Source of the DNA: Bacteroidota bacterium
GTDB lineage: Bacteria; Bacteroidota; Bacteroidia; Chitinophagales; LD1
DNA length: 64,000 bases
Direction of reading: 5' to 3'
Assembly: GCA_947479455.1 (NCBI GenBank)
Contig: CANJZE010000018.1
Coordinates: 1 to 64,000 of the forward strand
In this document: piece by piece, positions 2,434-53,275 of the stretch
How positions within the stretch are numbered: the first letter of the stretch is position 1
Layout of the letters: the number at the start of each line of letters is the position of its first letter
Position numbers and translations under genes: made by a program
Notes under the pieces: model-generated
The model's database searches: none
What the model was told of the DNA's origin: nothing
Seen by the model: the letters and a program-made list of their open reading frames with translations, nothing else

Positions 2434-5400
2434 ATGAAGAACTTTCTACGAGTTTCTCTTCTATTATTTTGTGCGCTCTATTACTCAGTTGAAATATCTG
2501 CTCAGCCCGGTTGCCCTGCTGTAAATGCCGGTGCCGATGTAAATATTCCATGCGGACAAAGCTGTACAACTTTAACGGCAAGCGCATTTAGCGCAGCGCA
2601 AACGACAGCATATTCGGTTGCTCCTATTACCTATGCACCACCCTTTCCGTTCAATGCTGGAAACGCTATTTTGGTAAATACGGATGATATATGGTCAGGT
2701 GTTATAAACCTTCCGTTTCAATTCTGTTTTTTTGGAGCTAATTACAATCAGATTGTTGTAGGTTCTAATGGTGTTGTTTCATTTAATACCGCAAATGCAG
2801 GCTTGTTTAACGAATGGCAAATTAATGGAACCGTTCCGGCAAACACACAGGCTACATTGCGGAACTCTATCATGGGCGCTTGGCAAGATTTGGATCCTAC
2901 TTATCAAGGACAGGTTTTTTATCAGGTTTCTGGTGCAGCACCTTGCCGCACGTTTGAAGTTTCTTGGTATCGCGCACCTTTGTATGGCGATGCAAACAGC
3001 GTGAGCACTACTCAATGTAACACGCCACACTTTTTGACACAACAGATTGTAATTTATGAAACCACAAATGCGATAGAAGTTTATATCAACAACAAAGTGC
3101 TTTGTACAGGTTGGAACGGGGGATTAGCGGTAGAAGGAATCGTGAATGCTGCCGGAACCCTTGCTTACACGGTCCCGGGAAGAAATGCCACCCAGTGGAC
3201 AGCAACTAACGATGCATACCGTTTTACTCCTGCAGGCGCACCTAACTATACTATAGCCTGGTTTGATGGCGTTACACAAATTGGAACAGGAAACAGCCTT
3301 TTGGTTTGTCCTCCATCATCACGTAGTTATACAGCTCAAGCTACCTACACCGATTGCGCTAACTCAACTGTAGTAGTTACCGATAACATCTTTGTAGGAG
3401 TTTCCGGACTTACAGTTCAAACAGATTCCATTCATCCAATTCAATGTTTTGGAGGAACGGGAGATATTTATGCTTCGTTTAATAGTACCGGCTCTGCAGT
3501 TTTGTCTTATGGCTGGACTCCAGGGGGTACGCCCAATTCAACTTCTATAACAGGCGTTACTGCTGGCACATATATTTTCTCTGTAACGGATGGCACCAAT
3601 TGTACTAAGTACGATACCGTTACACTTACACAACCAACGCAACTTATTGTTACCGTCTCTGACACTACGATCAATTCTTGTGTGAGTGGAAATTTTGGAG
3701 AGTTGACTGCGAATGGAACAGGGGGAACCGGTTCATATACCTATGCCTGGAGCACGGGATCAACCACTCAAACTATAACCAATCTGGGCGCAGGGACTTA
3801 TACAGTCACGATTACCGATGCCAATGGTTGCACCGCTACCGCTATAGGAAACGTAATTATCAATACCACTACTATAACTTTTGACCCGCCACAAATTGTT
3901 GATGCCAATTGTGGCTCTGCAACAGGTAGTATTACAATTAGTTCTACAGGCGGCACCGGCCCAATTACTTATTCATGGTCAGGGGGATTGCCAAACGGCT
4001 CAACAGTTAGTGGATTGCCAGCAGGAACTTATGATGTAACTGCAACAGATGCTAATGGATGTACAACCACTGCATCTTACACAGTGAATCAAACAGGGGG
4101 AATTAGCTTCGGAACTCCTGTAATTACAGATGCTGCATGTGGAAATGACGGAAGCATTGTAGTTACTGTAAATGGTGGAACAGCGCTAATCGATTTTACC
4201 TGGTCTGGCGGATTGCCGAATAATGACACAGTGAGCATTCCCGTTGCCGGCACTTATGATGTTACGGCTACTGATGCTAATGGCTGTTCGGCTACTGCTT
4301 CCTATACAGTGAATCAAAGCGCAGGAATTAATTTCGGTAATTCACAGATAACAGATATTACCTGTAGCACTGGAGGAAACATTATCGTTTCGACAAACGG
4401 AGGAACGGCACCTATTGATTTTAATTGGTCTGGAGGCTTACTGAATAATGATACGGTGAGTGTTGCAACGGCAGGAACATATAGCGTTACCGCAACTGAT
4501 GCAAACGGTTGCACAACCACGGCTTCTTATGTTGTCAATCAAATTTCATCCTTAGTTATAGACAGCGCAAATGTTGTTTCTGTAAATTGTGGAGGCGCAG
4601 GATCTATAACGCTGTTTGTTTCGGGTGGAAGTGGAGCACTTACCTACTCTTGGTCAAACGGTCAAGGCGGAAGTACTCTAACTGTATCAACACCTGGAAC
4701 ATACTCGGTAACTGTTGTTGACCAAAGCGGTTGCAGCACTACGGGTTCTTATGTAGTAAGCAATATTCCATGTTCTGGTTGCCCAGCAATTACAACTACC
4801 AATAATGTTACCATTCCATGCGGACAAGCCTGCACAACTCTTCATGCAGCTGCGTATGCAGGTGCTGCGACTACCTCGTATACGATTAGTCAAATTCCTT
4901 ACAATCCTACTTCAGCATATAACGTAGGAACACCTATTCTTGTGAATATTGATGACAGATGGTCGAATGTAATTAACCTTCCATTTGGTTTCTGCTTCTT
5001 CGGCTCAGCATATAATTCACTTATCGTGGGTTCTAACGGAGTAGTTTCTTTTAACACAGCAAATGCAAACGGATTTAACAGCTGGAACATTCCGGGACCA
5101 ATTCCTTCTCTTGCACCTGCAGATATGCGCAATTCAATCATGGGTCCATGGCATGATATGGATCCTACCAATCAAGGATTCATTTACTATAATATTATTG
5201 GAACTTATCCTTGTCGAAAATTTGTAGTGTCATGGTATCAAGTGCCAATGTTTGGTGATCCAAATAGTGTGAGTACCACACATTGCCCTAATCCACTGTT
5301 TGAAGTACAGCAAATTGTGTTGTATGAAACAACTAATGCAATTCAAATTTTTATTGAGAACAAAGATGCTTGCCCAGATTGGAACAATGGAAACGCAACT

Positions 5401-8400
5401 GAAGGAATTCAAAATGCAGCGGGCACTATAGCTTATACTGTTCCTGGAAGAAATGCCTCTGTTTGGACTGCACAGAATGATGCTTGGACTTTCTTGCCAG
5501 CTGGACCACCAAATTATGTGGTTACCTGGTTCCAAGGGGGAAATCCTATTGGAACGGGCGATTCCATTCAAGTTTGCCCTTCTGTAAATACTACCTATGG
5601 CGTTCAGGCAGTTTATACCAATTGCAATGGTGCACAAGTTACTCTTACCGATACGGTTAATGTTACTATTTCAGGTGGAAGTGGAATTACTATTCAAATA
5701 GATTCGATTCATCAAGTTACATGCTACAATGGAAATGACGGAGCGGTTTATGCTTCGTATGATGCACAGGGGCAACCGGTAAGTTCTTTTGGCTGGAGTC
5801 CCGGAGGAGCAGGTCAAACTTCATTGACAGGTCTGCCGCCAGGAACCTATATTTTTACTGTAACAACTGCTAATGGATGTACTGCCTCCGATACCGTTAC
5901 CTTGGTAAATCCCGCACCGTTTACGGTTAATGTACCTGATACAACAATCAATTCCTGCTCCGGCAATGTAAATGACGCTTCATTAACTGCTACTACTACA
6001 GGAGGAACACCAAATTTTGTTTTTGGATGGAGTAATGGTCAACAAACTGCCACCATCACAGGACTTTCTGCCGGCACATACACCGTTACGGTTACCGATT
6101 CTCTTGGTTGCACTGCAACTGATGCAGGGGCTGTTATTGTAAATTCAAATGCACCAACCTTAAACGGAGCAGTTACCAATGCTGTTTGCAGCGCTAACAA
6201 CGGAACCATCATTGTAAGTTTAAATGGTGGAACAAACCCCATTACTTATACCTGGACAAATGGTTTACCAAGTAGTGATACGGCCAGTGGTTTAGCACCG
6301 GGAACATATTCTGTTACGGCAATTGATGTAAACGGATGTTCGGCAACGGCTTCTTATACTGTTGGGCAAACAAATCCGGTTTCTTTCGGAACACCTACCA
6401 TAACACCTGCAAGTTGCGGACAAAGCAACGGAAGTATTACCGTAGTTTTAAATGGAGCAACAGCACCTATTACTTATTCATGGACCAGCGGTTTGCCAGA
6501 CACTTCTAGTGTGAACGGTTTGTCTGCCGGTTCTTATTCTGTTACTGCGGTTGACGCTAACGGATGTTCGGCAACAGCATCATATTCGGTTAACCCTTCT
6601 TCAACCTTAACAATTGATAGTTCTACTGTGAGCCCTGTGACTTGCACCGGTTTAGGTTCAATAACAGTGTACACAAGTGGAGGAAGTGGAACATATACTT
6701 ATACCTGGACTGGTGGTTTAACCGGAAATCCTGCCACAGGGGTTGTGGCCGGAAGCTATACCGTAACGGTGACTGATCAAGGTGGTTGTAGCGCGAGCGC
6801 ATACTACATTGTAGGCAATACACCTTGCGGAGATTGTCCTGCGGTAGCTACTAATAACAACGTAGATTTAGAATGCGGAGAAACTTGCACAACGCTTCAT
6901 GCAAGCGCAGTCGCAGGCGCACAAACCACGGCATACACGGTTGCTCCTATTCCTTACAACCCACCGCAACCCTTCAATGTAGGCACACCAATCCTTGTGA
7001 ATATTGATGATACCTGGTCGAATACCATTAACCTTCCATTCAACTTCTGTTTCTTTGGAACTACAAACAATCAATTGGTGGTGGGTTCAAATGGAGTTAT
7101 ATCTTTTGATGTAACCAATGCAGGTAACGTAAATAGCTGGCAGATTCCGGGACCAATACCATCTCCAAATCCAGGAGACTTAACTAATTGTATCATGGGA
7201 CCATGGCACGATATGGACCCTACCAATCAAGGAGCAATCTACTATTCAATTGGAGGAACCTATCCTTGCCGTTCATTTACGGTATCGTGGTATGAGGTGC
7301 CAATGTATGGTGACCCGAATAGTGTTTCCAGTTCAATTTGTCCCGATCCGCTTTTTGAGGTTCAACAAATTGTTCTTTACGAAACCACTAACACGATTGA
7401 TGTTTATATTCAACAAAAAGATGTTTGCGGAGGTTGGAACGGTGGCTTAGCAGTTGAAGGTATTCAAAACGCTGCTGGGACAATCGCATATACAGTTCCT
7501 GGTAGAAACGCAACGCAATGGACAGCACAAAATGATGCCTGGAGATTTGCTCCTGCAGGCGCCCCCAACTATGTAATAAATTGGTATCAATATGGAGTGT
7601 TGCTAGGAACAGGAGATAGTATTCAGGTTTGTCCTGATTCAACATCTACCTATAATGTGGATGCCATTTATACCAATTGTGACAACTCCACTATTACCGT
7701 TAGTGATTCGGTGCGTGTCAACGTATCGGGGGTGTTAACTGCACAGGTTGATTCTGTCATTAATATAAGCTGTTTTGGCGGAAACAATGGAGCAGTATAT
7801 GCTTCGTATGTCAGTAGTTTAGGAAATCTTTCTTACGGATGGAGTCCGGGAGGAAGTGGCTCAACTTCAATGACAAACTTGAGTGCAGGCACGTACGTGT
7901 TTTCTATTACAAACGGAAATGGATGTACCATCATAGATACTGCGGTGGTGACCGAACCAAATCAATTGGTAGTTACTGTTCCTGATACTACAGCCTATAA
8001 TTGTGTGCCGGGTGGTTCAATAACTGCAACCCTGAACACTACGGTTAGTGGCGGAACTCCTGGCTATAGTTATAGTTGGGGAGGAGGACAAATTACTTCT
8101 TCTATTTCGATAACGAGTGTAGGAACATATAATGTGACGGTAACCGATACCTTAGGCTGTACTGCTACAGATGCTTCAACGGTAAGTTTGATTATTGCTT
8201 CGCCAATATTTAACAACCCGATACTAACAGATGTTAGCTGCAACGGAGGAAGCAACGGAAGTGTTATCGTTAGCACAAGTCAATCCACACCACCAATTAT
8301 TTATACATGGTCGGGTGGGGTTTCGACTAACGATACCGCGAGTGGTCTTGCCGCAGGAAACTATAGTGTAACTGCTGTAGATGCTAACGGATGTTCGGTA

Positions 8401-11400
8401 AGTGCTACTTATGATATTAACGAACCACTGCCAATTGTTATTGATTCGCCTGCTGTAATTGCAGAAGCGACTTGTACGGTTGGTGGTTCTGTTACCATTA
8501 CCGCAAGCGGAGGAACCGGTGCCTTAACTTTTGCTTGGTCGAATGGAGATACCGGAAACACAGCCGATAGTTTAGCTGCGGGTTCTTATACCGTAACAGT
8601 TACTGACGCAAACGGATGCACTGTAACGGCAAGCTATACAATTACTTCTGCTCCCGGAACAGTGCAGTTAGGAAATCCGACTATAACGAATGTTAGTTGC
8701 AACGGAGGAAATGACGGAAGCATTGTAGCAAACGCAAGCGGAGGAACAGGAACGCTTACTTACAATTGGGGGAACCTAACAGGGGATAGCATTGGTGGGT
8801 TGACAGCCGGCACTTATTCACTTACTGTTTCTGACCAAAACGGTTGTACTGCTTCGGCTTCGTATACAGTTGCAGAACCTACACCTATTGTGGTTGATTC
8901 TGTAATCATTACACAGGCAACTTGCCAAAACGGTGGAACGATAACTATTGTTAGCGTGAGCGGTGGAGCAGGACAGTATACTTCATTCAATTGGAGTAAT
9001 GGTGATAGCGGAAGCAGTATTGATTCGCTTGCGGGCGGTCCTTACACTGTAACGATTACAGATGCCAACGGTTGTACTAATTCATTTACTTACACAGTAG
9101 GAACAGCCGTAGGAGTTATTGCTTTTGGCGTACCTACTATTACTAATATTTCGTGTAACGGTGCAAACGATGGAAGCATTACGATTACCATAACAGGAGG
9201 GACTCCACCGGATTCAATTCACTGGAGTACGGGCGCTTCAACATCTACCATAAGTGGTTTATCTGCGGGTTCTTATTCAGTAACAATTACTGATGCTACG
9301 GGATGTTCGGCAAGCACTACTTACAGCGTTACAGAGCCTTTGGTTATTACATTGGGCAACCCAATCATTACTCAGGCAACTTGTACGGTGGGTGGTTCTA
9401 TAACGGTTACTGCTACTGGCGGTACAGGAACCTTGGTTTACAATTGGTCGAACGCACAGAGCGGAAGTAGTATTGATTCGTTAGCCGGTGGGCCTTATGT
9501 GTTGACGGTTATCGATGCAAACGGATGCAGTGTTACCTCAAGTTACACAGTTCCCGTAGCACCTGGTACGGTTCAATTTGGTGCACCAGTAATTACCAAT
9601 GCAAGCTGCGCTGGTAACGATGGAAGCATTACCGCTTCGGCTAGTGGTGGTAATGGAACAATTACTTTCACTTGGAGTGGAGGTGTTACCGGACCGGTAA
9701 GAACAGGATTAAGCGCGGGTAACTATTCGGTAACGATTACCGACCAAGATGGTTGTTCGGCCTCTACTACTTATATAGTAACGGGTGGTTCTCCAATTAC
9801 TATTGATTCGGTTCTTGCTACACAAGCAAGCTGCGCGCAAGGTGGAACCCTTACCGTTGTAACGGTAGGTGGAGGACAAACTCCGCTTGTTATAACCTGG
9901 AGTAATGGCGACAGTGGTGCAACAGCTGATAGTCTTTCGGCAGGGGCTTATACAGTAACCGTAACAGATAATGCCGGTTGCAGTGTGAGTGGAACTTACA
10001 ATGTAACCGGAGCGGCAGGAATAATTTTATTCGGCAATCCGGTGATCGCGAATGTAACGTGCCACGGTGGAACAAACGGAAGTATTACGGTTTCTACTTC
10101 AGGTGGAAGTGGAATGATCCATTATCAATGGAGTACTAGTGCCGCAGATACTTTTGCATCGGTAACACCGCTTGGTGCAGGAACTTATTCAGTGACTGCA
10201 AATGATAATTCGGGCTGCTCGGCAAGTGCAGTTTACACAATTACAGAACCGGCTACTGCGGTAAGCGCAGTGGTTACGGCTACACAATTAATGTGCTTTG
10301 GCGATACGGTAGGTAGTGCATTTGTTACCCCAGCAGGTGGAACACCTGGTTATACTTATCACTGGAATACCGGTTCAGACATTAGTAGTGTTTCGAATCA
10401 ACCGGTGGGAATTGTGGTGGTAACAGTTACTGATGCCAACAACTGTTCGATTAGCACAACAGGATTTATCGACCAGGCTTCTGATTATTATACTTCTACT
10501 ATTGTGTTCCAGCCGAATTGCGGAAACATTGGTTTCGGAACGGTTCAAATTGGACCTAAGGTAATTGGAGCCGGTGTTGGTCATGGACCTTATACTCTGA
10601 ATGTGATTGGTTTGGGAACTGCAACTATTCCTGCTATTGACAGCGTTACTTATTTCTATAACGTTGCCAGTGGTACGTATATATTCACAATTACCGATTC
10701 ATTAGGCTGTTTAAAAACGGATTCCTTCTCTGTTAACGCAGGTGTGGCCAATGATAATATTGCTGTATCTACCGATTCAACTACTTGTTTTGGCGACCAA
10801 TTTAATGATGGTAGTATTACGGTTTCGGCATTGAGCAGTGCGAATGCACCTTATACTTATTCATTTGATGGTGGCTTGACCTTTGGCACCGATAGTATTT
10901 GGACGAATGTAGCCGCAGGAACGTATACCATTTACACACGGAACGGATTTGGTTGCCTCGATTCTATAACAGCAACGGTTGAACAACCGGCTCAGGTTTC
11001 GGTTTATGCAAATCCGGATACCATTCTTACAGCACCTGGAGTGGGGAATACAGCGGTAGTCTTAGCTACTAATTTTGTGAATCCGGTTTATAACTGGACA
11101 CCGGTAGATGGATTATCGTCTATTGATTCGCCATCTACTACCATAACGGTAAACAGCAATAGTGTGTTCTATGTTTATGTAAGCGAAAGCGCTAACGCAC
11201 ATTGTGGTGCTATTGATTCTGTAGTAGTAATTGTTTCGGGGGTGTTTAGAATGCCCAACGCTTTTACTCCAAACGGTGACGGCAGGAACGATGTATTCAG
11301 CCCTATAAGATTAGGACCTTCGGTTAGTTTGAAAGAGTTTAGAATTTACAACCGTTGGGGCGAGTTAGTGCACAGCGCAGCTGAGCCTTGGGATGGTAAA

Positions 11401-11526
11401 CTGAACGGCAAAGAGCAACCGGCAGGAACATTCGTGTATTATGTTATTGCATCAGTTCCAGATGAGCAACATCCGGGTGGATTTAAAGATGAAAAACAGG
11501 AAGGCGCGTTCTCGTTGTTGAGATAG
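2434..11526 (+). CDS. Giant SprB-repeat adhesin with type B T9SS C-terminal sorting domain
   Basis: 3030 residues. A signal peptide ends near residue 23 (VEISAQ). Three related N-terminal heads start at about residues 27, 783 and 1468. Each is a ~290-residue nidogen/NIDO-like domain with shared motifs (VGSNGVVSFN, MGPWHDMDPTNQG, YTVPGRNA) and opens with a CPA...CG..CTTL Cys pattern. Each head is followed by SprB-like repeats of ~70 residues (consensus GTYTVTVTDANGC): about 6, 5 and 14 copies. From residue ~2938 comes the gliding motility-associated C-terminal domain (MPNAFTPNGDGRNDVF, then IYNRWGELV), which directs type IX secretion and surface attachment. It is probably a cell-surface adhesin for gliding or attachment. 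A strong terminator follows. It appears monocistronic. Confidence 0.92.
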   Translation: MKNFLRVSLLLFCALYYSVEISAQPGCPAVNAGADVNIPCGQSCTTLTASAFSAAQTTAYSVAPITYAPPFPFNAGNAILVNTDDIWSGVINLPFQFCFFGANYNQIVVGSNGVVSFNTANAGLFNEWQINGTVPANTQATLRNSIMGAWQDLDPTYQGQVFYQVSGAAPCRTFEVSWYRAPLYGDANSVSTTQCNTPHFLTQQIVIYETTNAIEVYINNKVLCTGWNGGLAVEGIVNAAGTLAYTVPGRNATQWTATNDAYRFTPAGAPNYTIAWFDGVTQIGTGNSLLVCPPSSRSYTAQATYTDCANSTVVVTDNIFVGVSGLTVQTDSIHPIQCFGGTGDIYASFNSTGSAVLSYGWTPGGTPNSTSITGVTAGTYIFSVTDGTNCTKYDTVTLTQPTQLIVTVSDTTINSCVSGNFGELTANGTGGTGSYTYAWSTGSTTQTITNLGAGTYTVTITDANGCTATAIGNVIINTTTITFDPPQIVDANCGSATGSITISSTGGTGPITYSWSGGLPNGSTVSGLPAGTYDVTATDANGCTTTASYTVNQTGGISFGTPVITDAACGNDGSIVVTVNGGTALIDFTWSGGLPNNDTVSIPVAGTYDVTATDANGCSATASYTVNQSAGINFGNSQITDITCSTGGNIIVSTNGGTAPIDFNWSGGLLNNDTVSVATAGTYSVTATDANGCTTTASYVVNQISSLVIDSANVVSVNCGGAGSITLFVSGGSGALTYSWSNGQGGSTLTVSTPGTYSVTVVDQSGCSTTGSYVVSNIPCSGCPAITTTNNVTIPCGQACTTLHAAAYAGAATTSYTISQIPYNPTSAYNVGTPILVNIDDRWSNVINLPFGFCFFGSAYNSLIVGSNGVVSFNTANANGFNSWNIPGPIPSLAPADMRNSIMGPWHDMDPTNQGFIYYNIIGTYPCRKFVVSWYQVPMFGDPNSVSTTHCPNPLFEVQQIVLYETTNAIQIFIENKDACPDWNNGNATEGIQNAAGTIAYTVPGRNASVWTAQNDAWTFLPAGPPNYVVTWFQGGNPIGTGDSIQVCPSVNTTYGVQAVYTNCNGAQVTLTDTVNVTISGGSGITIQIDSIHQVTCYNGNDGAVYASYDAQGQPVSSFGWSPGGAGQTSLTGLPPGTYIFTVTTANGCTASDTVTLVNPAPFTVNVPDTTINSCSGNVNDASLTATTTGGTPNFVFGWSNGQQTATITGLSAGTYTVTVTDSLGCTATDAGAVIVNSNAPTLNGAVTNAVCSANNGTIIVSLNGGTNPITYTWTNGLPSSDTASGLAPGTYSVTAIDVNGCSATASYTVGQTNPVSFGTPTITPASCGQSNGSITVVLNGATAPITYSWTSGLPDTSSVNGLSAGSYSVTAVDANGCSATASYSVNPSSTLTIDSSTVSPVTCTGLGSITVYTSGGSGTYTYTWTGGLTGNPATGVVAGSYTVTVTDQGGCSASAYYIVGNTPCGDCPAVATNNNVDLECGETCTTLHASAVAGAQTTAYTVAPIPYNPPQPFNVGTPILVNIDDTWSNTINLPFNFCFFGTTNNQLVVGSNGVISFDVTNAGNVNSWQIPGPIPSPNPGDLTNCIMGPWHDMDPTNQGAIYYSIGGTYPCRSFTVSWYEVPMYGDPNSVSSSICPDPLFEVQQIVLYETTNTIDVYIQQKDVCGGWNGGLAVEGIQNAAGTIAYTVPGRNATQWTAQNDAWRFAPAGAPNYVINWYQYGVLLGTGDSIQVCPDSTSTYNVDAIYTNCDNSTITVSDSVRVNVSGVLTAQVDSVINISCFGGNNGAVYASYVSSLGNLSYGWSPGGSGSTSMTNLSAGTYVFSITNGNGCTIIDTAVVTEPNQLVVTVPDTTAYNCVPGGSITATLNTTVSGGTPGYSYSWGGGQITSSISITSVGTYNVTVTDTLGCTATDASTVSLIIASPIFNNPILTDVSCNGGSNGSVIVSTSQSTPPIIYTWSGGVSTNDTASGLAAGNYSVTAVDANGCSVSATYDINEPLPIVIDSPAVIAEATCTVGGSVTITASGGTGALTFAWSNGDTGNTADSLAAGSYTVTVTDANGCTVTASYTITSAPGTVQLGNPTITNVSCNGGNDGSIVANASGGTGTLTYNWGNLTGDSIGGLTAGTYSLTVSDQNGCTASASYTVAEPTPIVVDSVIITQATCQNGGTITIVSVSGGAGQYTSFNWSNGDSGSSIDSLAGGPYTVTITDANGCTNSFTYTVGTAVGVIAFGVPTITNISCNGANDGSITITITGGTPPDSIHWSTGASTSTISGLSAGSYSVTITDATGCSASTTYSVTEPLVITLGNPIITQATCTVGGSITVTATGGTGTLVYNWSNAQSGSSIDSLAGGPYVLTVIDANGCSVTSSYTVPVAPGTVQFGAPVITNASCAGNDGSITASASGGNGTITFTWSGGVTGPVRTGLSAGNYSVTITDQDGCSASTTYIVTGGSPITIDSVLATQASCAQGGTLTVVTVGGGQTPLVITWSNGDSGATADSLSAGAYTVTVTDNAGCSVSGTYNVTGAAGIILFGNPVIANVTCHGGTNGSITVSTSGGSGMIHYQWSTSAADTFASVTPLGAGTYSVTANDNSGCSASAVYTITEPATAVSAVVTATQLMCFGDTVGSAFVTPAGGTPGYTYHWNTGSDISSVSNQPVGIVVVTVTDANNCSISTTGFIDQASDYYTSTIVFQPNCGNIGFGTVQIGPKVIGAGVGHGPYTLNVIGLGTATIPAIDSVTYFYNVASGTYIFTITDSLGCLKTDSFSVNAGVANDNIAVSTDSTTCFGDQFNDGSITVSALSSANAPYTYSFDGGLTFGTDSIWTNVAAGTYTIYTRNGFGCLDSITATVEQPAQVSVYANPDTILTAPGVGNTAVVLATNFVNPVYNWTPVDGLSSIDSPSTTITVNSNSVFYVYVSESANAHCGAIDSVVVIVSGVFRMPNAFTPNGDGRNDVFSPIRLGPSVSLKEFRIYNRWGELVHSAAEPWDGKLNGKEQPAGTFVYYVIASVPDEQHPGGFKDEKQEGAFSLLR

Positions 11527-18350: not shown

Positions 18351-18355
18351 GTTTT

Positions 18356-18383
18356 TAGTATTGAGTAGTTAGTATTGAGTATT
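18356..18383 (-). repeat. Period-7 array in the rpsN leader
   Basis: On the plus strand the units are TAGTATT, GAGTAGT, TAGTATT, GAGTATT: four 7-base units, followed by the related TAGACAA. The array starts 6 bases upstream of the rpsN start codon, inside the 65-base rplE-rpsN spacer. Confidence 0.7.
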
Positions 18384-18415
18384 TAGACAATACAGTTCTA
18401 TCTTTTATGGTTGAT

Positions 18416-19177: not shown

Positions 19178-21277
19178 ATGTATTCGAAAGAACAGGTAGC
19201 AGAACTCAATCAACTTTCTCATGAACTTCTCAAATCAGAAAACAATTTTTCTGTAGAGGAAAAAGCATACGCGCTTCGCAAGGTGATTAACTACCACGAC
19301 TGGCGATACTACGTTTTAAGTGAACCAAGCATTACTGATTTCGATTATGATAAATTATTTACCGAACTCAAACAACTCGAAACCCGAAACCCGCAACTCG
19401 TAACGCCCGATTCTCCGACACAACGAGTTGCCAGCGCACTCACCAACGAATTTGAATCGGTTTCTCATTTGGCGAGTATGCTTTCGTTAGAAAACTCATA
19501 CAACCTTGGCGATATAGAAGAGTTTAATCGCAGAGTAACAGACTTGACTAAAACTGCTGAAATAGAATATTGCGTTGAACCAAAATTTGACGGAGCAAGT
19601 ATTGCGCTGGTGTATGAAAACGATAAGCTCGTGCGTGCCGCAACGCGTGGCGATGGAACAGTTGGCGAAGACATCACCAACAACGCCATGGCAATTCCTT
19701 CCATTCCGCTTTCTGCTCCATTTTCAAAATTCGGAATTCATAAAATGGAGTTGCGAGGTGAAGTGATTATCACTAAAGAAATTTTTGAAAAGAAGAATGC
19801 TGAGCGCATTGCCAAAGGTGAAAAGAGTTTTCAGAATTCGCGCAACACTGCTTCGGGTTCGCTGCGCATGAAGGACCCGAACGAAGTAGCCCAACGCGGA
19901 CTCGAAGCCATTCTGTATCACGTAAGTTTTGCAGAAGATGCCAATGGGAAAAATTTGATTGCGGAAAAATTGCTCACTCATTATTCAGTTATTGAAATGC
20001 TTTACAACTGCGGCTTTAAAACTCCGCTTAAAGAATTAAAGGTTTGCAAGAGTGCGCAGGAAGTGGATGACTTCATCAACACATGGGATGCTAAACGATT
20101 GACCTTTAATATAGAAACAGATGGTATGGTGGTGAAGGTGAACTCGCTGAAAATGCAGCAGCAATGCGGCAGCACTTCACATCATCCGCGTTGGGCAATT
20201 GCTTATAAGTTTGCCGCAAAACAGGCGCAGAGTAAATTGTTGAAAGTAGAATTTCAGGTGGGGCGAACAGGAGCGGTTACCCCGGTTGCAAAAATTGAAC
20301 CTGTTCCATTGGCGGGTGTAACCATCTCTTCCATTTCATTGCACAACGAAGAATTTATTCTCGAAAAAAATTTGTTGTTGGGTGATACCGTGATTGTTGA
20401 ACGTGCCGGTGAAGTCATTCCCTATATAGTTGGTTCAGTGCCTGATTTACGAAACGGTTCAGAAATTAAAATTGATTTTCCCCGCACTTGTCCTTCGTGC
20501 AATTCGCCTTTGGTGAAGCCGGAAGAAGAAGCAATTTGGCGCTGCGACAATGTGGACTGCCCCGCACAAACCGAAGAGCGCGCCATTCATTTTGTTTCGA
20601 AAGATGCTATGGATATTGATGGATGCGGAAGTTCAACCATCATTGAATTTATTCAGCGGGGCTTTATTAAAAACATCGAAGACCTTTATCGTTTGCCTTA
20701 TGATGAAATTTTGAAGTTGGAGGGATGGAAGGAAAAAAGTGTGAGCAATCTGAAAACGGGCATCGAAGATTCGAAAAACCGACCGCTATGGCGTTTGTTG
20801 AATGCGCTCGGCATTCGTCATGTAGGCGTTACTACTTCGAAAGATATTTCTGCGCATATCAAAACCATTTTCGATTTAGAGAAAATGAGCGTGGAAGATT
20901 TAGAAAACATAGAAGGCATTGGTCCGAAGGTGGCGCAGAGCATTTTTGATTTTTTTCAAAACCAAGCCAACATTCATTTACTAAATGAGTTGAAAAACTT
21001 TGGCGTGAACACAGACAATCGCCCCGAAGATTCCCTTTCTAAAAACAATAAACTCGAAGGCAAAACTTTTCTCTTCACCGGTTCGTTGCAGCAGTTTACG
21101 CGCGACCGCGCTAAGCAATTGGTGGAAGAAAACGGAGGTAAACTATTGAGTGGTGTTTCTGCAAATCTGAATTACTTAGTGGTGGGCGAAGATTCCGGAA
21201 GCAAATTGGCGAAGGCAAAGAAGATTCCTTCGATTGTTGTTTTGACCGAGGAAGAGTTTTTGAAGATGGTAGAGTAA
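19178..21277 (+). CDS. ligA: NAD-dependent DNA ligase LigA
   Basis: 699 residues from the ATG at 19178; the TTG at 19166 is an alternative. It seals nicks in replication and repair using NAD+. Domains in order: Ia; adenylation domain with catalytic Lys136 in EPKFDG and TRGDGTVGEDIT; OB fold; four-Cys zinc finger (Cys438, 441, 456, 461); HhH repeats (e.g. GIGPKVAQSI); and a C-terminal BRCT domain from about GKTFLFTGSLQQF. Length is typical for the family. It is divergent from the rplE operon. An array of 7-base units is embedded at codons ~66-77 without altering the expected protein length. Confidence 0.97.
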   Translation: MYSKEQVAELNQLSHELLKSENNFSVEEKAYALRKVINYHDWRYYVLSEPSITDFDYDKLFTELKQLETRNPQLVTPDSPTQRVASALTNEFESVSHLASMLSLENSYNLGDIEEFNRRVTDLTKTAEIEYCVEPKFDGASIALVYENDKLVRAATRGDGTVGEDITNNAMAIPSIPLSAPFSKFGIHKMELRGEVIITKEIFEKKNAERIAKGEKSFQNSRNTASGSLRMKDPNEVAQRGLEAILYHVSFAEDANGKNLIAEKLLTHYSVIEMLYNCGFKTPLKELKVCKSAQEVDDFINTWDAKRLTFNIETDGMVVKVNSLKMQQQCGSTSHHPRWAIAYKFAAKQAQSKLLKVEFQVGRTGAVTPVAKIEPVPLAGVTISSISLHNEEFILEKNLLLGDTVIVERAGEVIPYIVGSVPDLRNGSEIKIDFPRTCPSCNSPLVKPEEEAIWRCDNVDCPAQTEERAIHFVSKDAMDIDGCGSSTIIEFIQRGFIKNIEDLYRLPYDEILKLEGWKEKSVSNLKTGIEDSKNRPLWRLLNALGIRHVGVTTSKDISAHIKTIFDLEKMSVEDLENIEGIGPKVAQSIFDFFQNQANIHLLNELKNFGVNTDNRPEDSLSKNNKLEGKTFLFTGSLQQFTRDRAKQLVEENGGKLLSGVSANLNYLVVGEDSGSKLAKAKKIPSIVVLTEEEFLKMVE
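19373..19407 (+). repeat. Period-7 array inside ligA coding sequence
   Basis: Units in order are CAACTCG, AAACCCG, AAACCCG, CAACTCG, TAACGCC: five consecutive 7-base units sharing an AACYCG core. They encode a segment ahead of the conserved TPDSPTQ motif. The protein segment still looks like a normal LigA sequence. Confidence 0.55.
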
Positions 21278-25155: not shown

Positions 25156-25181
25156 GTCCCCTTTAGGGGATTTAGGGGTTT
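25156..25181 (-). repeat. 26-bp dispersed palindromic repeat, copy 2
   Basis: It is identical over 26 bases to the copy at 18054-18079. Its last two bases overlap the stop codon of the VWA gene ending at 25180, so as in copy 1 it forms the immediate 3' flank of a minus-strand gene. Confidence 0.85.
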
Positions 25182-26586
25182 ACAATTTCAAACTTAAACT
25201 TCCGCCACTCACAATATCAAATTCTTTATCTACACTGGTGTGGATTGTGCGGGCGTTTTTAGAGCGATAGACTAAACGGTATTTACCGGGTTGCAGCGCA
25301 AGAGTTTCTTGCTTGTCTTTCAAATGCAGTTCGTAGATTTTTTTCATGGCTCCTTTTTCTACAATAAAAATTCCGCCATAGGCCTCAAAACCTTTGTTGA
25401 TGGTAAGAATTCCCGGTGTAGGAATCTGCACATCAGTCGTTTTGCTTTGGTCAATCTTTACATTCTTCACTGTCAATCGTGGAAGGGTAAGCACTTCCAA
25501 TTCATAATTGCCACACAAATATTTTTCTTTTGAATTAATGCGCTGAACATTCAGTGTTTCACTTTTGCCCTGCAAATGTACGATGCATTTAATACGGTCT
25601 GTTGCATGAACTTGTGAAGTTGTTCCTTGCAAACTAAAATTCAAAAACCCTTGTGGCGCGTTGAGCGAAACTATGTTGTGCGTGTTTTTTCGCAGTATAA
25701 TACTGTCCTTGAAAATTGGTGGAATGGTATGCACTTGTAAACGATATTGAAAAGTATGTGAAACAGAAATGGTGTCGGGTAAACCGCGCGCGTTGAGCGT
25801 GTGATAGAAATTGTATTTGGGTTCATTCGAAGCAATTTCATAGAAGGTCATGTTCACGGCACTCTCTGTTGGTTTGCCGTTGGCATCGTTCAGGTTTATT
25901 TGCAACGTAGTTTTAGCAATAGATTCTAATACTGCGGTATTTAATGCATTTGTAAATTCTGCGCGGTTACTGGTGTTGAAGAGTTGCCCCATACAATTCA
26001 TTTTAGAAAAAATGTTTGACTGCAAACCCATGCCAATAATAAACGGACGAAGAATAACATTGTGTTGTTGCAGAATTACACCAATAGAACACGGGTCACG
26101 GTCGCAAGCATCTTCTCCATCGGTAATAATGATGAGAATGTTTTTTGTGCCGTCATCACCAAAATCAAGTGCTGCTTTTTCAATTGAATAAACTAATGGG
26201 GTTATACCTTTGGGTCGCAGCTCTTCCAGTTTTCTCCGAAACCTGGAAACATTATTGGTATCAAACGGAATGGCTAATCTTGAGTCCCTGCAATTTTTGT
26301 CGGGCTCGGGATACAAATCGCCAAACACGCGTAACCCCATTTCTATGTTCGGAAGTTTAGAAACACTGTCGGCAATTTCCAATAGTGATGAAGTGGCCAC
26401 ATTCCATTTTGTTCCGCCTTTCCATTCGCTTTTCATACTTAACGAGGCATCGAGAAGGAAGAGAATTCGCGTTTTGTCTTGGCAAAAACCGACCATAGAC
26501 CATAGGCCACAGACCATGGCAATACAAAACACACGGAGTGTATTTTCATTGGTCAATCGTCTATTGTCAATCGTCATCGCTCTCAT
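25180..26586 (-). CDS. Secreted von Willebrand factor A domain protein (paralogue 1)
   Basis: 468 residues. An N-terminal signal peptide ends near GFCQ (residue ~36) and is encoded by period-7 arrays. The VWA domain follows directly: RILFLLDASLSMKSEW supplies the MIDAS DxSxS, GITPLVYSIEKA the MIDAS Thr, and IIITDGEDACDRDPC the MIDAS Asp. After ~residue 230 come beta-rich domains of unknown type. The neighbouring upstream gene encodes a paralogue of the same length and layout, and the two overlap by 4 bases (ATGA), so they are translationally coupled. Metal-dependent ligand binding outside the cytoplasm is likely; the ligand is unknown. Confidence 0.85.
   Translation of the reverse strand: MRAMTIDNRRLTNENTLRVFCIAMVCGLWSMVGFCQDKTRILFLLDASLSMKSEWKGGTKWNVATSSLLEIADSVSKLPNIEMGLRVFGDLYPEPDKNCRDSRLAIPFDTNNVSRFRRKLEELRPKGITPLVYSIEKAALDFGDDGTKNILIIITDGEDACDRDPCSIGVILQQHNVILRPFIIGMGLQSNIFSKMNCMGQLFNTSNRAEFTNALNTAVLESIAKTTLQINLNDANGKPTESAVNMTFYEIASNEPKYNFYHTLNARGLPDTISVSHTFQYRLQVHTIPPIFKDSIILRKNTHNIVSLNAPQGFLNFSLQGTTSQVHATDRIKCIVHLQGKSETLNVQRINSKEKYLCGNYELEVLTLPRLTVKNVKIDQSKTTDVQIPTPGILTINKGFEAYGGIFIVEKGAMKKIYELHLKDKQETLALQPGKYRLVYRSKNARTIHTSVDKEFDIVSGGSLSLKL
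26491..26580 (-). repeat. Two period-7 arrays encoding the paralogue 1 signal peptide
   Basis: On the plus strand, 26491-26518 reads GACCATA, GACCATA, GGCCACA, GACCATG (four units). 26546-26580 reads TCATTGG, TCAATCG, TCTATTG, TCAATCG, TCATCGC (five units). A 27-base spacer lies between. The second array abuts the start codon, and the first encodes the hydrophobic core. Confidence 0.75.
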
Positions 26587-28010
26587 TTCACTAAATTTAA
26601 AACTACGACATCGCCTTCAACCACTACAAATTTTTGTGTGCGTGTTGATTCGCTATCGTAATTGTTCATAGGCTTATAAACCAGCCAATAATTTCCGGGT
26701 TGAAGTTTTTTGTTTTCGGTCTTTGTTTTCATTTCCCATCGGTCAATTGTTTGCAGGCGTTGGTTTTTCCATTGGTAAATACTAGCCATTAAATTTTCTT
26801 CTGCCATTAAAGAAAGCGTGCCGTAAAACTTCAACACTACTTTTGTTTCGTTCATGGCAAGCACCATCGTATCAGGATTAATTTCCGGATTGGTGAGAAT
26901 TTCCAATTCGTAGTTTCCTTGTAAATAATTTTCAGGAGCGTTCAAATCCTGCACATCTAAAATTTCGCGCTTCTCATTTTTTGCGCGTACCACAATTTGC
27001 GCATCGTTGTTTGCATAGTTCGCCTGCAGGCATTCTACATTCAGTTTTCCCGCAGGAACATCTATTGCAATGATGTTGTGCTTGCCCGCAGTCAATTCAA
27101 TATTGTCTTTGCGAATACTAGGAACAGTGTGCAATTCCAAATCGTAAATACCAACCGGGTCCAGAAAAAGCGTATCGGGATTTCCCTTTTCATTGAGCGT
27201 ATGAACAAAGTTGTATAGAATTTTTCGGCTGGCATGGTCGTACAGTGTAAATGGAATATTAGTAACTGTTGGATTTCCATTTTGGTCAAGTAGGTTTACT
27301 TGTGAGGTAGTAGTATTGAGCGTTTGTTTAATAATAACGCCCACAGTATTGTAAAGGGCAGCTTCATCTTTTGTGTCGAGCACGGTTCCAATGCAACTCA
27401 ATTGCTTCACAAAATTTTCTCCGCCATTCATACCTACAATAAACGGGCGAAGTGAAACTCTTTTGTCTAGTAATTTTTGCGAAGCCGAACATGGATTTCC
27501 ATCGCAGTTTTCGTTGCCATCAGTAATAATTAAAATGGAGTTCAGGCTTTTTTCATCGGGCGGAAAGTCGTTTGCCGCTTGTGCAAGCGAATAAGCAATG
27601 GGAGTCATTCCTTGCGGAGATATTTTTTCGAGTGCTGCTTTTATTTTTTCGGCATTACCCTTTGCAAACGGAACAAGAAGTTTACTGTCTTTACAATTTC
27701 TTTCGGTTTTTGAAAACTGATAACCGAAAGCGCGCACCGCAAATTCCACATTCGGATTTTTCTTTTCTACCGAATCAATGATTTTGAAAAGAAGTTCTTT
27801 CGCTGTTTCAAACTTTGTTTTCTCGCCCCATTTTTCTTTCATGCTTCCTGAAACATCGAGCACAAATAAAACGCGGTTGATGTTGGGTTTATAGACTTGG
27901 GTTTGCTGAGAAAGTAGTGAGTAGTGAGTAGTGAGTAGTGAGATGAATGCAAGTAGCCGAATCCCTTTCGGATTGAAAATTGAAAATTGAAAATTGAAGA
28001 TTGAATACAT
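26583..28010 (-). CDS. Secreted von Willebrand factor A domain protein (paralogue 2)
   Basis: 475 residues, paralogous to the downstream gene over its whole length. The signal peptide (cleavage region near LLSQQ, residue ~36) is encoded by two period-7 arrays. The MIDAS is intact: RVLFVLDVSGSMKE, GMTPIAYSLAQA and ILIITDGNENCDG. A conserved Cys pair (NCDGNPC) follows, and ~240 residues of beta-rich sequence with LQGNYELEILTNP complete it. It starts at the only ATG ahead of the VWA domain. It is probably the first gene of an operon with paralogue 1. Confidence 0.85.
   Translation of the reverse strand: MYSIFNFQFSIFNPKGIRLLAFISLLTTHYSLLSQQTQVYKPNINRVLFVLDVSGSMKEKWGEKTKFETAKELLFKIIDSVEKKNPNVEFAVRAFGYQFSKTERNCKDSKLLVPFAKGNAEKIKAALEKISPQGMTPIAYSLAQAANDFPPDEKSLNSILIITDGNENCDGNPCSASQKLLDKRVSLRPFIVGMNGGENFVKQLSCIGTVLDTKDEAALYNTVGVIIKQTLNTTTSQVNLLDQNGNPTVTNIPFTLYDHASRKILYNFVHTLNEKGNPDTLFLDPVGIYDLELHTVPSIRKDNIELTAGKHNIIAIDVPAGKLNVECLQANYANNDAQIVVRAKNEKREILDVQDLNAPENYLQGNYELEILTNPEINPDTMVLAMNETKVVLKFYGTLSLMAEENLMASIYQWKNQRLQTIDRWEMKTKTENKKLQPGNYWLVYKPMNNYDSESTRTQKFVVVEGDVVVLNLVK
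27913..28006 (-). repeat. Two period-7 arrays encoding the paralogue 2 signal peptide
   Basis: On the plus strand, 27913-27940 is four perfect AGTAGTG units. 27972-28006 is ATTGAAA three times, then ATTGAAG and ATTGAAT. A 31-base spacer lies between. The layout (five units beside the start codon, spacer, four units) matches paralogue 1 although the unit sequences are unrelated. Confidence 0.85.
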
Positions 28011-52339: not shown

Positions 52340-53275
52340 ATGAAATTTGCACCCATGAAAAAAGTATTGATTACAGGAGCCAGCGGACTAGTCGGAACCA
52401 GACTAGGCGCCTTGCTTTTGAAGAAAGGATATGAGGTAAATACCTTAGGAAGAAAAGTCAATCGTCCGAAGTCCGAAGTCCGAAGCCAGGCAAATTCATA
52501 TGTCTGGAATCTAGAAAAAGGAGATGTAGATGCGAAGGCATTCGAAGGAGTTTCTGACGTAATCCATTTAGCAGGAGCAGGAGTGGCCGACAAAAGATGG
52601 AGTGATGAACGCAAAAAGGAAATTGTAGAAAGCCGCGTACAAAGCGCAAAACTGATTTTCGATTTTTTGAAGAAGAATAAACACGAAGTGAAAACTTTCA
52701 TCAGCGCGAGTGCTGTAGGTTTCTATGGCGATTGCGGAGATGAAGTAGTGGCCGAAGAGCATAAAGCAGGCAAAGGATTTTTGGCAGAAGTTTGTAAGCA
52801 ATGGGAGCAAAGCGCTAAGCAATTTTCAAAATTAGAAATAAGAGAAGTGCGATGCCGAATTGGAATTGTATTGGCAAAAGATGGAGGCGCGTTGCCTGAG
52901 CTTACGCGAACCATTCCTTTAGGGGCGGCTTCTTACTTCACTAAAAGCAAGCTCTATTATCCGTGGGTGCATATTGACGATGTGTGCGGTATTGTGATTC
53001 ACGCGTTGGAAAATGAAAAGGTAAGAGGCGCTTACAACACCACAGCACCACAACCATTGCTCATGAAAGATTTGATGAAGCAAATTCTTGTTGCAAATAA
53101 ATCGAAGGCTGTGCTTATGCCCGCACCAAGCTTTGCTATAAAACTGGCTATGGGCGAAATGAGTGAAATACTTTTGAGTAGCCAGAAATGTTCTGCTGAA
53201 AAAATTTTAGAAACGGGCTACCCATTCAAATTCGGAGAGATAGAGAAAGCGTTAGCTGAAATTTATTCGAACTGA
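52340..53275 (+). CDS. TIGR01777 family NAD(P)-binding epimerase-like protein
   Basis: 311 residues. The start may be the ATG at 52340 or the one at 52355 (MKKVLITGASG), which is closer to the family N-terminus. Rossmann GASGLVGTRLG is followed by VIHLAGAGVADKRWS and ISASAVGFYGDCGDE (Tyr in the catalytic region), GFLAEVCKQWE and YPWVHIDDV. The family is related to SDR epimerases and SulA; the substrate is unknown. Codons ~40-50 contain a period-7 array. Confidence 0.88.
   Translation: MKFAPMKKVLITGASGLVGTRLGALLLKKGYEVNTLGRKVNRPKSEVRSQANSYVWNLEKGDVDAKAFEGVSDVIHLAGAGVADKRWSDERKKEIVESRVQSAKLIFDFLKKNKHEVKTFISASAVGFYGDCGDEVVAEEHKAGKGFLAEVCKQWEQSAKQFSKLEIREVRCRIGIVLAKDGGALPELTRTIPLGAASYFTKSKLYYPWVHIDDVCGIVIHALENEKVRGAYNTTAPQPLLMKDLMKQILVANKSKAVLMPAPSFAIKLAMGEMSEILLSSQKCSAEKILETGYPFKFGEIEKALAEIYSN
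52464..52485 (+). repeat. Period-7 array in the epimerase gene
   Basis: GTCCGAA is repeated three times in perfect register and followed by a further G. It encodes part of a variable loop after the first beta-alpha unit. Confidence 0.7.

Follow-up and report, generated by a model that had tools for sequence, protein, structure and literature searches.

Short tandem arrays of seven-nucleotide units at the starts of two adjacent VWA genes belong to a family of such arrays dispersed through the genome that carries them. The family has a size limit, a vocabulary of units shared among loci and a biased location, and its units turn over at fixed sites with no sign of frame loss. Our preferred explanation, which we consider probable, is that these are genus-wide, dispersed and size-limited heptanucleotide arrays, largely tolerated passengers, and that the two VWA genes gained their copies in separate events, long after they had duplicated, and that these copies are not a secretion switch.

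Paired arrays at the starts of the two VWA genes

The window (the whole 64,000-nt stretch of DNA analysed) contains four period-7 arrays scoring ≥12 in a lag-7 scan, whereas 30 runs of dinucleotide-Markov copies gave none. The VWA genes and their arrays are as follows.

26583..28010, minus strand: VWA gene 2, an ORF of 475 aa (Pfam VWA_2, E=2.8e-11)
25180..26586, minus strand: VWA gene 1, an ORF of 468 aa (Pfam VWA_2, E=1.3e-6)
27972..28005, minus strand: gene 2 N-region array, coding-strand TTCAATT/TTCAATC (ATTGAAA), 4.9 units, 34 nt, 96% (TRF and lag-7 scan)
27913..27942, minus strand: gene 2 hydrophobic-core array, coding-strand CACTACT (AGTAGTG), 4.3 units, 30 nt, perfect (TRF and lag-7 scan)
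26552..26580, minus strand: gene 1 N-region array, degenerate, coding-strand GACAATA/GACGATT (TCAATCG-like), ~4 units (lag-7 scan)
26491..26520, minus strand: gene 1 hydrophobic-core array, coding-strand TATGGTC (GACCATA), ~4 units (TRF, lag-7 scan and arm match)

The first-pass annotation had placed two period-7 arrays at the start of each gene. TRF and the lag-7 scan bore this out and recovered the units it had named, ATTGAAA and AGTAGTG in gene 2 and TCAATCG-like and GACCATA-like words in gene 1. Both gene 1 arrays are degenerate: TRF gives the core array as 26491 to about 26516 (GACCATA, 3.9 units, 80%), and the N-region array, with a lag-7 score of 12 (shuffle P ~0.0003), is under the TRF threshold. 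The two genes had also been said to share a layout of 35 bp of array, a spacer of 31 or 27 bp and 28 bp of array. The arrangement is close to this, but those figures were approximate, as array, spacer and array measure 34, 29 and 30 nt in gene 2 and ~29, 31 and 30 nt in gene 1. The similar spacing of the two genes is at least partly a property of paired arrays in the family, because 11 array pairs lie ≤60 nt apart among 84 arrays, against 0.5 expected.

In both genes the arrays are in frame after the ATG and upstream of the Pfam VWA domain. They plausibly span the n-region and h-region of a Sec signal peptide, as had been proposed. The features of such a peptide (a positive n-region, a hydrophobic core and a small pre-cleavage residue) are visible by inspection and persist, hydrophobic cores included, in orthologues built of other units.

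Since 7 is not divisible by 3, a change of a single unit shifts the frame, and the arrays had therefore been read as possible phase-variable secretion switches in which 7-nt units are added or removed. Phase variation of hmw1A is indeed driven by 7-bp repeats, through promoter length (PMC8262952), and one leader array in the present family has a unit more in one species than in another. Against a switch, every readable N-terminus was in frame (14 of 14 for gene 2 and 10 of 10 for gene 1, in a between-species comparison within the genus), and the arrays have only 4-5 units compared with 14-24 in the hmw1A tract (PMC8262952). Moreover, like arrays without indels lie within the genes for transketolase and NAD-dependent DNA ligase, which are unlikely to be phase-variable genes, and the transketolase array is equal in length, its copy number stable, between two species. 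Frequent slippage requires a threshold tract length, of which arrays of 4-5 units fall short. Given the in-frame N-termini, the low unit numbers, the constant length of the transketolase array and the nature of the host genes, the switch reading is not supported at the level of species comparison, and we regard it as very improbable.

A dispersed and size-limited family

The array census covered 913 kb, about a quarter of the 3.76-Mb genome (G000, an uncultured Bacteroidota MAG), and returned 49 period-7 arrays scoring ≥12 compared with 0-1 in order-2 Markov copies. Period 7 occurred at 54/Mb vs 0-19/Mb for periods 5-13 and 15, with its harmonic, period 14, at 32/Mb. Stretches from the same genus carried 61/Mb (G015), 81/Mb (G017) and 15/Mb (G009), and stretches from three genomes outside the genus held one period-7 array in total, the comparison stretches being small (60-174 kb each). 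The array word ATTGAAA gave 61 overlapping matches in the 3.76-Mb genome and its reversed control word gave 0. The remaining VWA array units were likewise found again elsewhere in the genome.

Among the 49 arrays, 29 were 30-34 nt long, 12 were 23-29 nt and none exceeded 39 nt; note that the score threshold trims short arrays and that the method sets no upper length limit. The genome does not have a single conserved word, as 32 distinct units were found among 57 arrays. Nevertheless, identical units recur: these 57 arrays gave 41 identical-unit pairs, vs 2.4 expected from genome 7-mers or 3.9 from letter-shuffled units, and seven of eight G015 units are present in G000 as well. In addition, seven unrelated loci carry one and the same imperfect array, AGTATTGAGTAGTTAGTATTG, in each case adjoining a start codon (window 18354-18386, L261, L262, L263, L264, L265 and G000:C2:177614, ~4-13 nt upstream of the start codons of unrelated genes). 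Local slippage acting independently at each locus would not readily produce such sharing, which calls for either the copying of words from one locus to another or selection that favors certain words.

These data bear on the view that the arrays are ordinary heptanucleotide microsatellites, generated by local polymerase slippage and drift with no movement between loci. In many bacteria the long simple repeats show an excess of heptanucleotides, for which slippage is a proposed cause (reviewed in PMC4679880 and PMC4692102), and one leader of the present family shows a one-unit difference. However, a vocabulary shared far above chance, the recurrence of one imperfect array and a length distribution that peaks at 30-34 nt instead of declining steadily, with 0 arrays above 39 nt, make this explanation distinctly unlikely.

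Additional family members within the window lie in a leader and inside two genes.

18354..18386, minus strand: leader array of CTCAATACT/AACTACT words, directly 5' of the start codon of an S14-like ORF (TRF)
19374..19404, plus strand: period-7 array inside the DNA ligase (LigA-like) gene, a family member
52464..52485, plus strand: period-7 array GTCCGAA inside a 311-aa ORF, a family member (TRF and lag-7 scan)

The ORF downstream of the leader array is presumably related to ribosomal protein S14, which it resembles. The leader has four units in G000 and three in the G015 orthologue, the sole one-unit difference seen, and is non-coding. By simple ORF calls, intergenic arrays numbered 26 (5.4 expected) and arrays in the first 120 nt of genes 18 (6.4 expected), whereas gene-internal arrays numbered 23 (52 expected) and the last 60 nt of genes held 0 (3.2 expected). 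Two hallmarks of dispersed heptanucleotide arrays, an abundance far above chance and a bias toward intergenic DNA and the starts of genes, are found here, the latter by the same ORF calls. The encoded peptides are often hydrophobic at gene starts and mostly hydrophilic inside genes. The location bias fits survival where sequence may vary freely.

About a dozen G000 arrays are leaders that end within ~13 nt of an ATG having an in-frame stop upstream. Such positions raise the alternative that the arrays are functional DNA or RNA elements: those at start codons would be binding sites or leaders setting translation or transcription, the signal-peptide copies would be instances lying just inside a gene, and selection would keep period and size. 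The many arrays ending within ~13 nt of an ATG and the array repeated directly 5' of seven start codons argue for this, and MacGregor suggested such a role for the TAACTGA repeats (PMC4679880). The units, however, are very diverse (32 among 57 arrays) and are replaced at the same site, no leader role is possible for arrays deep in the transketolase and ligase genes, and orthologues devoid of arrays appear equally intact. We therefore consider this alternative unlikely.

A common array sequence with terminal inverted repeats, as in REP- or MITE-like elements, was not found, an inverted partner lying ≤110 nt away for only 9 of 98 arrays. This is nevertheless more than the 0.4 expected, and in VWA gene 1 one array is an imperfect inverted complement of the other (GACAATA.. 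/ TATGGTC..), which is not so in gene 2. Paired inverted arrays might correct each other as quasi-palindromes by hairpin-templated copying, such that length is kept and both arms change together. The excess of inverted partners speaks for this process, as does gene 1, whose two arms match more closely when taken from one species than from different ones (P=0.026, six species). Inverted partners are, however, missing from most arrays, those of VWA gene 2 among them, and the gene 1 test comprises six related species only. We give hairpin templating very little weight. A general inverted-repeat rule for paired arrays was rejected, as it fails for VWA gene 2 and for most arrays.

Separately, when the arrays are read on their pyrimidine-rich strand, the word GGCTGTT comes immediately before 9 of 135 (0.2 expected; for example at G000:C2:140868, C2:166832 and C25:52236), a hint of a longer composite element. 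The genome also has three Y1_Tnp (IS200/REP-type) transposase genes (G000:C5:159462, C11:29828 and C9:105095).

Unit turnover at orthologous sites

Gene 2 orthologues were found in 35 of the 41 genomes searched and gene 1 orthologues in all 18 genus genomes. The paralogue pair occurs throughout the order and outgroup cores are generally non-periodic, G018 and G021, outgroups from the same family, having T-rich cores with low lag-7 P. Convincing VWA arrays appear to be restricted to this genus. As the pair is order-wide and outgroup cores are generally non-periodic, the VWA arrays would postdate the duplication and would have been gained separately by each gene. The gene 2 array is also more widely spread in the genus than that of gene 1. 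The first-pass annotation had alternatively suggested that repeat elements were co-opted as signal peptides and that, once the gene had duplicated, each copy replaced its own, and in outline these distributions support that suggestion. Inheritance of the arrays with the duplication itself was rejected, since the pair is old and its outgroup copies lack convincing arrays, the low P values of G018 and G021 notwithstanding.

The gene 2 core is periodic (P ≤0.002) in 11 of 14 readable genus members and is written in at least five different units: CACTACT (G000 and G016), GTCTATT (G015), GTCTTGT (G004, G017 and G010), GTCTCAC (G013), TAATACT (G006, G011 and G014) and CAATACT (G012). On the ligase tree, several forks of which are weakly supported, G000 groups with G004, G015 and G017, which have other words, yet it has CACTACT in common with G016. 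Unit words thus do not simply track this tree, and recombination between lineages may be a further contributor. Gene 1 arrays are periodic in G000, G015, G004, G017 and G016, and by inspection in G001, with units that differ among these six; the lag-7 test found no periodicity in gene 1 of G006, G011, G013 and G014.

Turnover extends to other proteins. An array-bearing protein of 273 aa, which we take to be transketolase-like, has an 11-codon stretch that aligns gap-free throughout the genus but is GAAACTC x4.7 in G000 and G015, GAAAGTG-like in G016 and G017 and CAACTGT in G009. Units also turn over at the array site of a 1127-aa protein. The ligA array is found in G000 only, that place being non-periodic in seven other readable relatives with no change in length.

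A second dispersed element, the hairpin TTGTTTCATCCCGCNTTCNTTNGCGGG, has 10 near-exact copies (G000:C1:7350, C1:48689, C23:17118 and seven more), and its reverse complement terminates in ATGAAACAA. In G015 (L052) it lies within the gene 2 signal-peptide region, where it may supply the start codon.

Proposed origin and relation to known repeats

In the explanation that we favor, arrays of 4-5 units, usually 26-34 nt long and sometimes paired ~30 nt apart, cluster in intergenic DNA, leaders and gene starts. Within genes they survive where their residues suit, hydrophobic ones in signal-peptide cores and hydrophilic ones in linkers. A given site can stay periodic and in frame across the divergence of species even as its unit word is replaced. 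Units would probably change by homogenisation within the array, through slipped or template-switched copying, and words may be copied between loci. Largely tolerated passengers could in this way have come to serve as signal-peptide or leader sequence. Preservation of length in genes is partly a survivor effect, because frame-breaking variants would be lost by selection.

Several observations, the CACTACT array shared by G000 and G016 among them, weigh against this explanation. Slippage leaves the narrow size limit near 32 nt unaccounted for and would not usually give the length-neutral change in place seen at ligA and transketolase, though selection would purge frame-breakers. Finally, the seven identical leader arrays could reflect function rather than tolerance. 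A more specific proposal is that a process dedicated to the genus overwrites sequence in place with period-7 DNA of fixed length (~32 nt, 4.5 units), repeatedly at the same sites and without change in length, re-encoding signal peptides and linkers with new heptad words during speciation. We consider such a process quite improbable. In gap-free alignments of 78 kb, counts of lag-7 templated substitutions were highest at lags 7 and 14 (4 and 3) and were 0-2 elsewhere, an excess that is only suggestive of templated change.

Heptanucleotide arrays are already known in bacteria, and a survey across life placed Bacteroidota among the phyla rich in short tandem repeats (PMC12699852). TAACTGA direct repeats occur in Beggiatoaceae, some cyanobacteria and five Bacteroidetes (MacGregor, PMC4679880). 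Like the arrays described here they have period 7, form mostly short dispersed arrays, many of them just 5' of start codons, have coding copies mostly at the protein periphery and are suspected of mobility (PMC4679880). In contrast, that system has one unit, whose neighbours rarely repeat, in up to 43 copies in some species (PMC4679880), whereas here there are dozens of units and a limit near 32 nt; unit words that differ at orthologous coding sites are a feature of the present arrays. The GGGAATC and GGGGA(C/T)T heptamers of Xanthomonas and Nostoc also have period 7, mostly four units, many close convergent (inverted) pairs (70-75 per genome for Xanthomonas GGGAATC), and a sequence and length that vary between sister species (PMC4692102). 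They differ in being a single G-rich, quadruplex-forming family, ~90% intergenic, with up to 26 units (PMC4692102), whereas many of the present units are A+T-rich and many positions coding. The hmw1A promoter repeats of Haemophilus influenzae are likewise 7-bp tandem repeats near a gene start, but they comprise 14-24 units in a promoter, where length variation alters expression (PMC8262952), rather than 4-5 units at gene starts. What is distinctive here is the many units, the strict size, the unit turnover at orthologous coding sites and the signal-peptide cores written in arrays. A literature search, with subscription journals largely outside its reach, found no description of such arrays in the genus.

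If turnover at fixed coding sites proves general, a tandem repeat that is not a multiple of three can persist in coding sequence, even that of ligase and transketolase, without switching, and period-7 repeats become a possible source of signal peptides and leaders. A non-triplet repeat at a gene start therefore need not mark a phase-variable locus. Many species of this genus have been sequenced, and the size limit and shared vocabulary offer a way to test there how bacterial heptanucleotide repeats arise.

In a phylum-wide search the exact 26-nt TTCAATY array was found in 3 of 395 genomes. Period-7 arrays of 26 nt made of the reversed control word AACTTYT were present in several genomes belonging to other families (for example G124 and G317). 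Searches with a single unit thus tell little about breadth, and this result hints at a wider distribution of heptad arrays, built of other units, across the phylum.

Two further features of the window were seen in comparisons with G015. Over 150 nt within ~52400-52600, identity to G015 is ~98%, compared with ~86-87% in the surroundings, and this stretch was perhaps exchanged recently. Positions 2434-11526 hold a very long ORF (~3030 aa), in which repeats of internal segments show up as off-diagonal matches.
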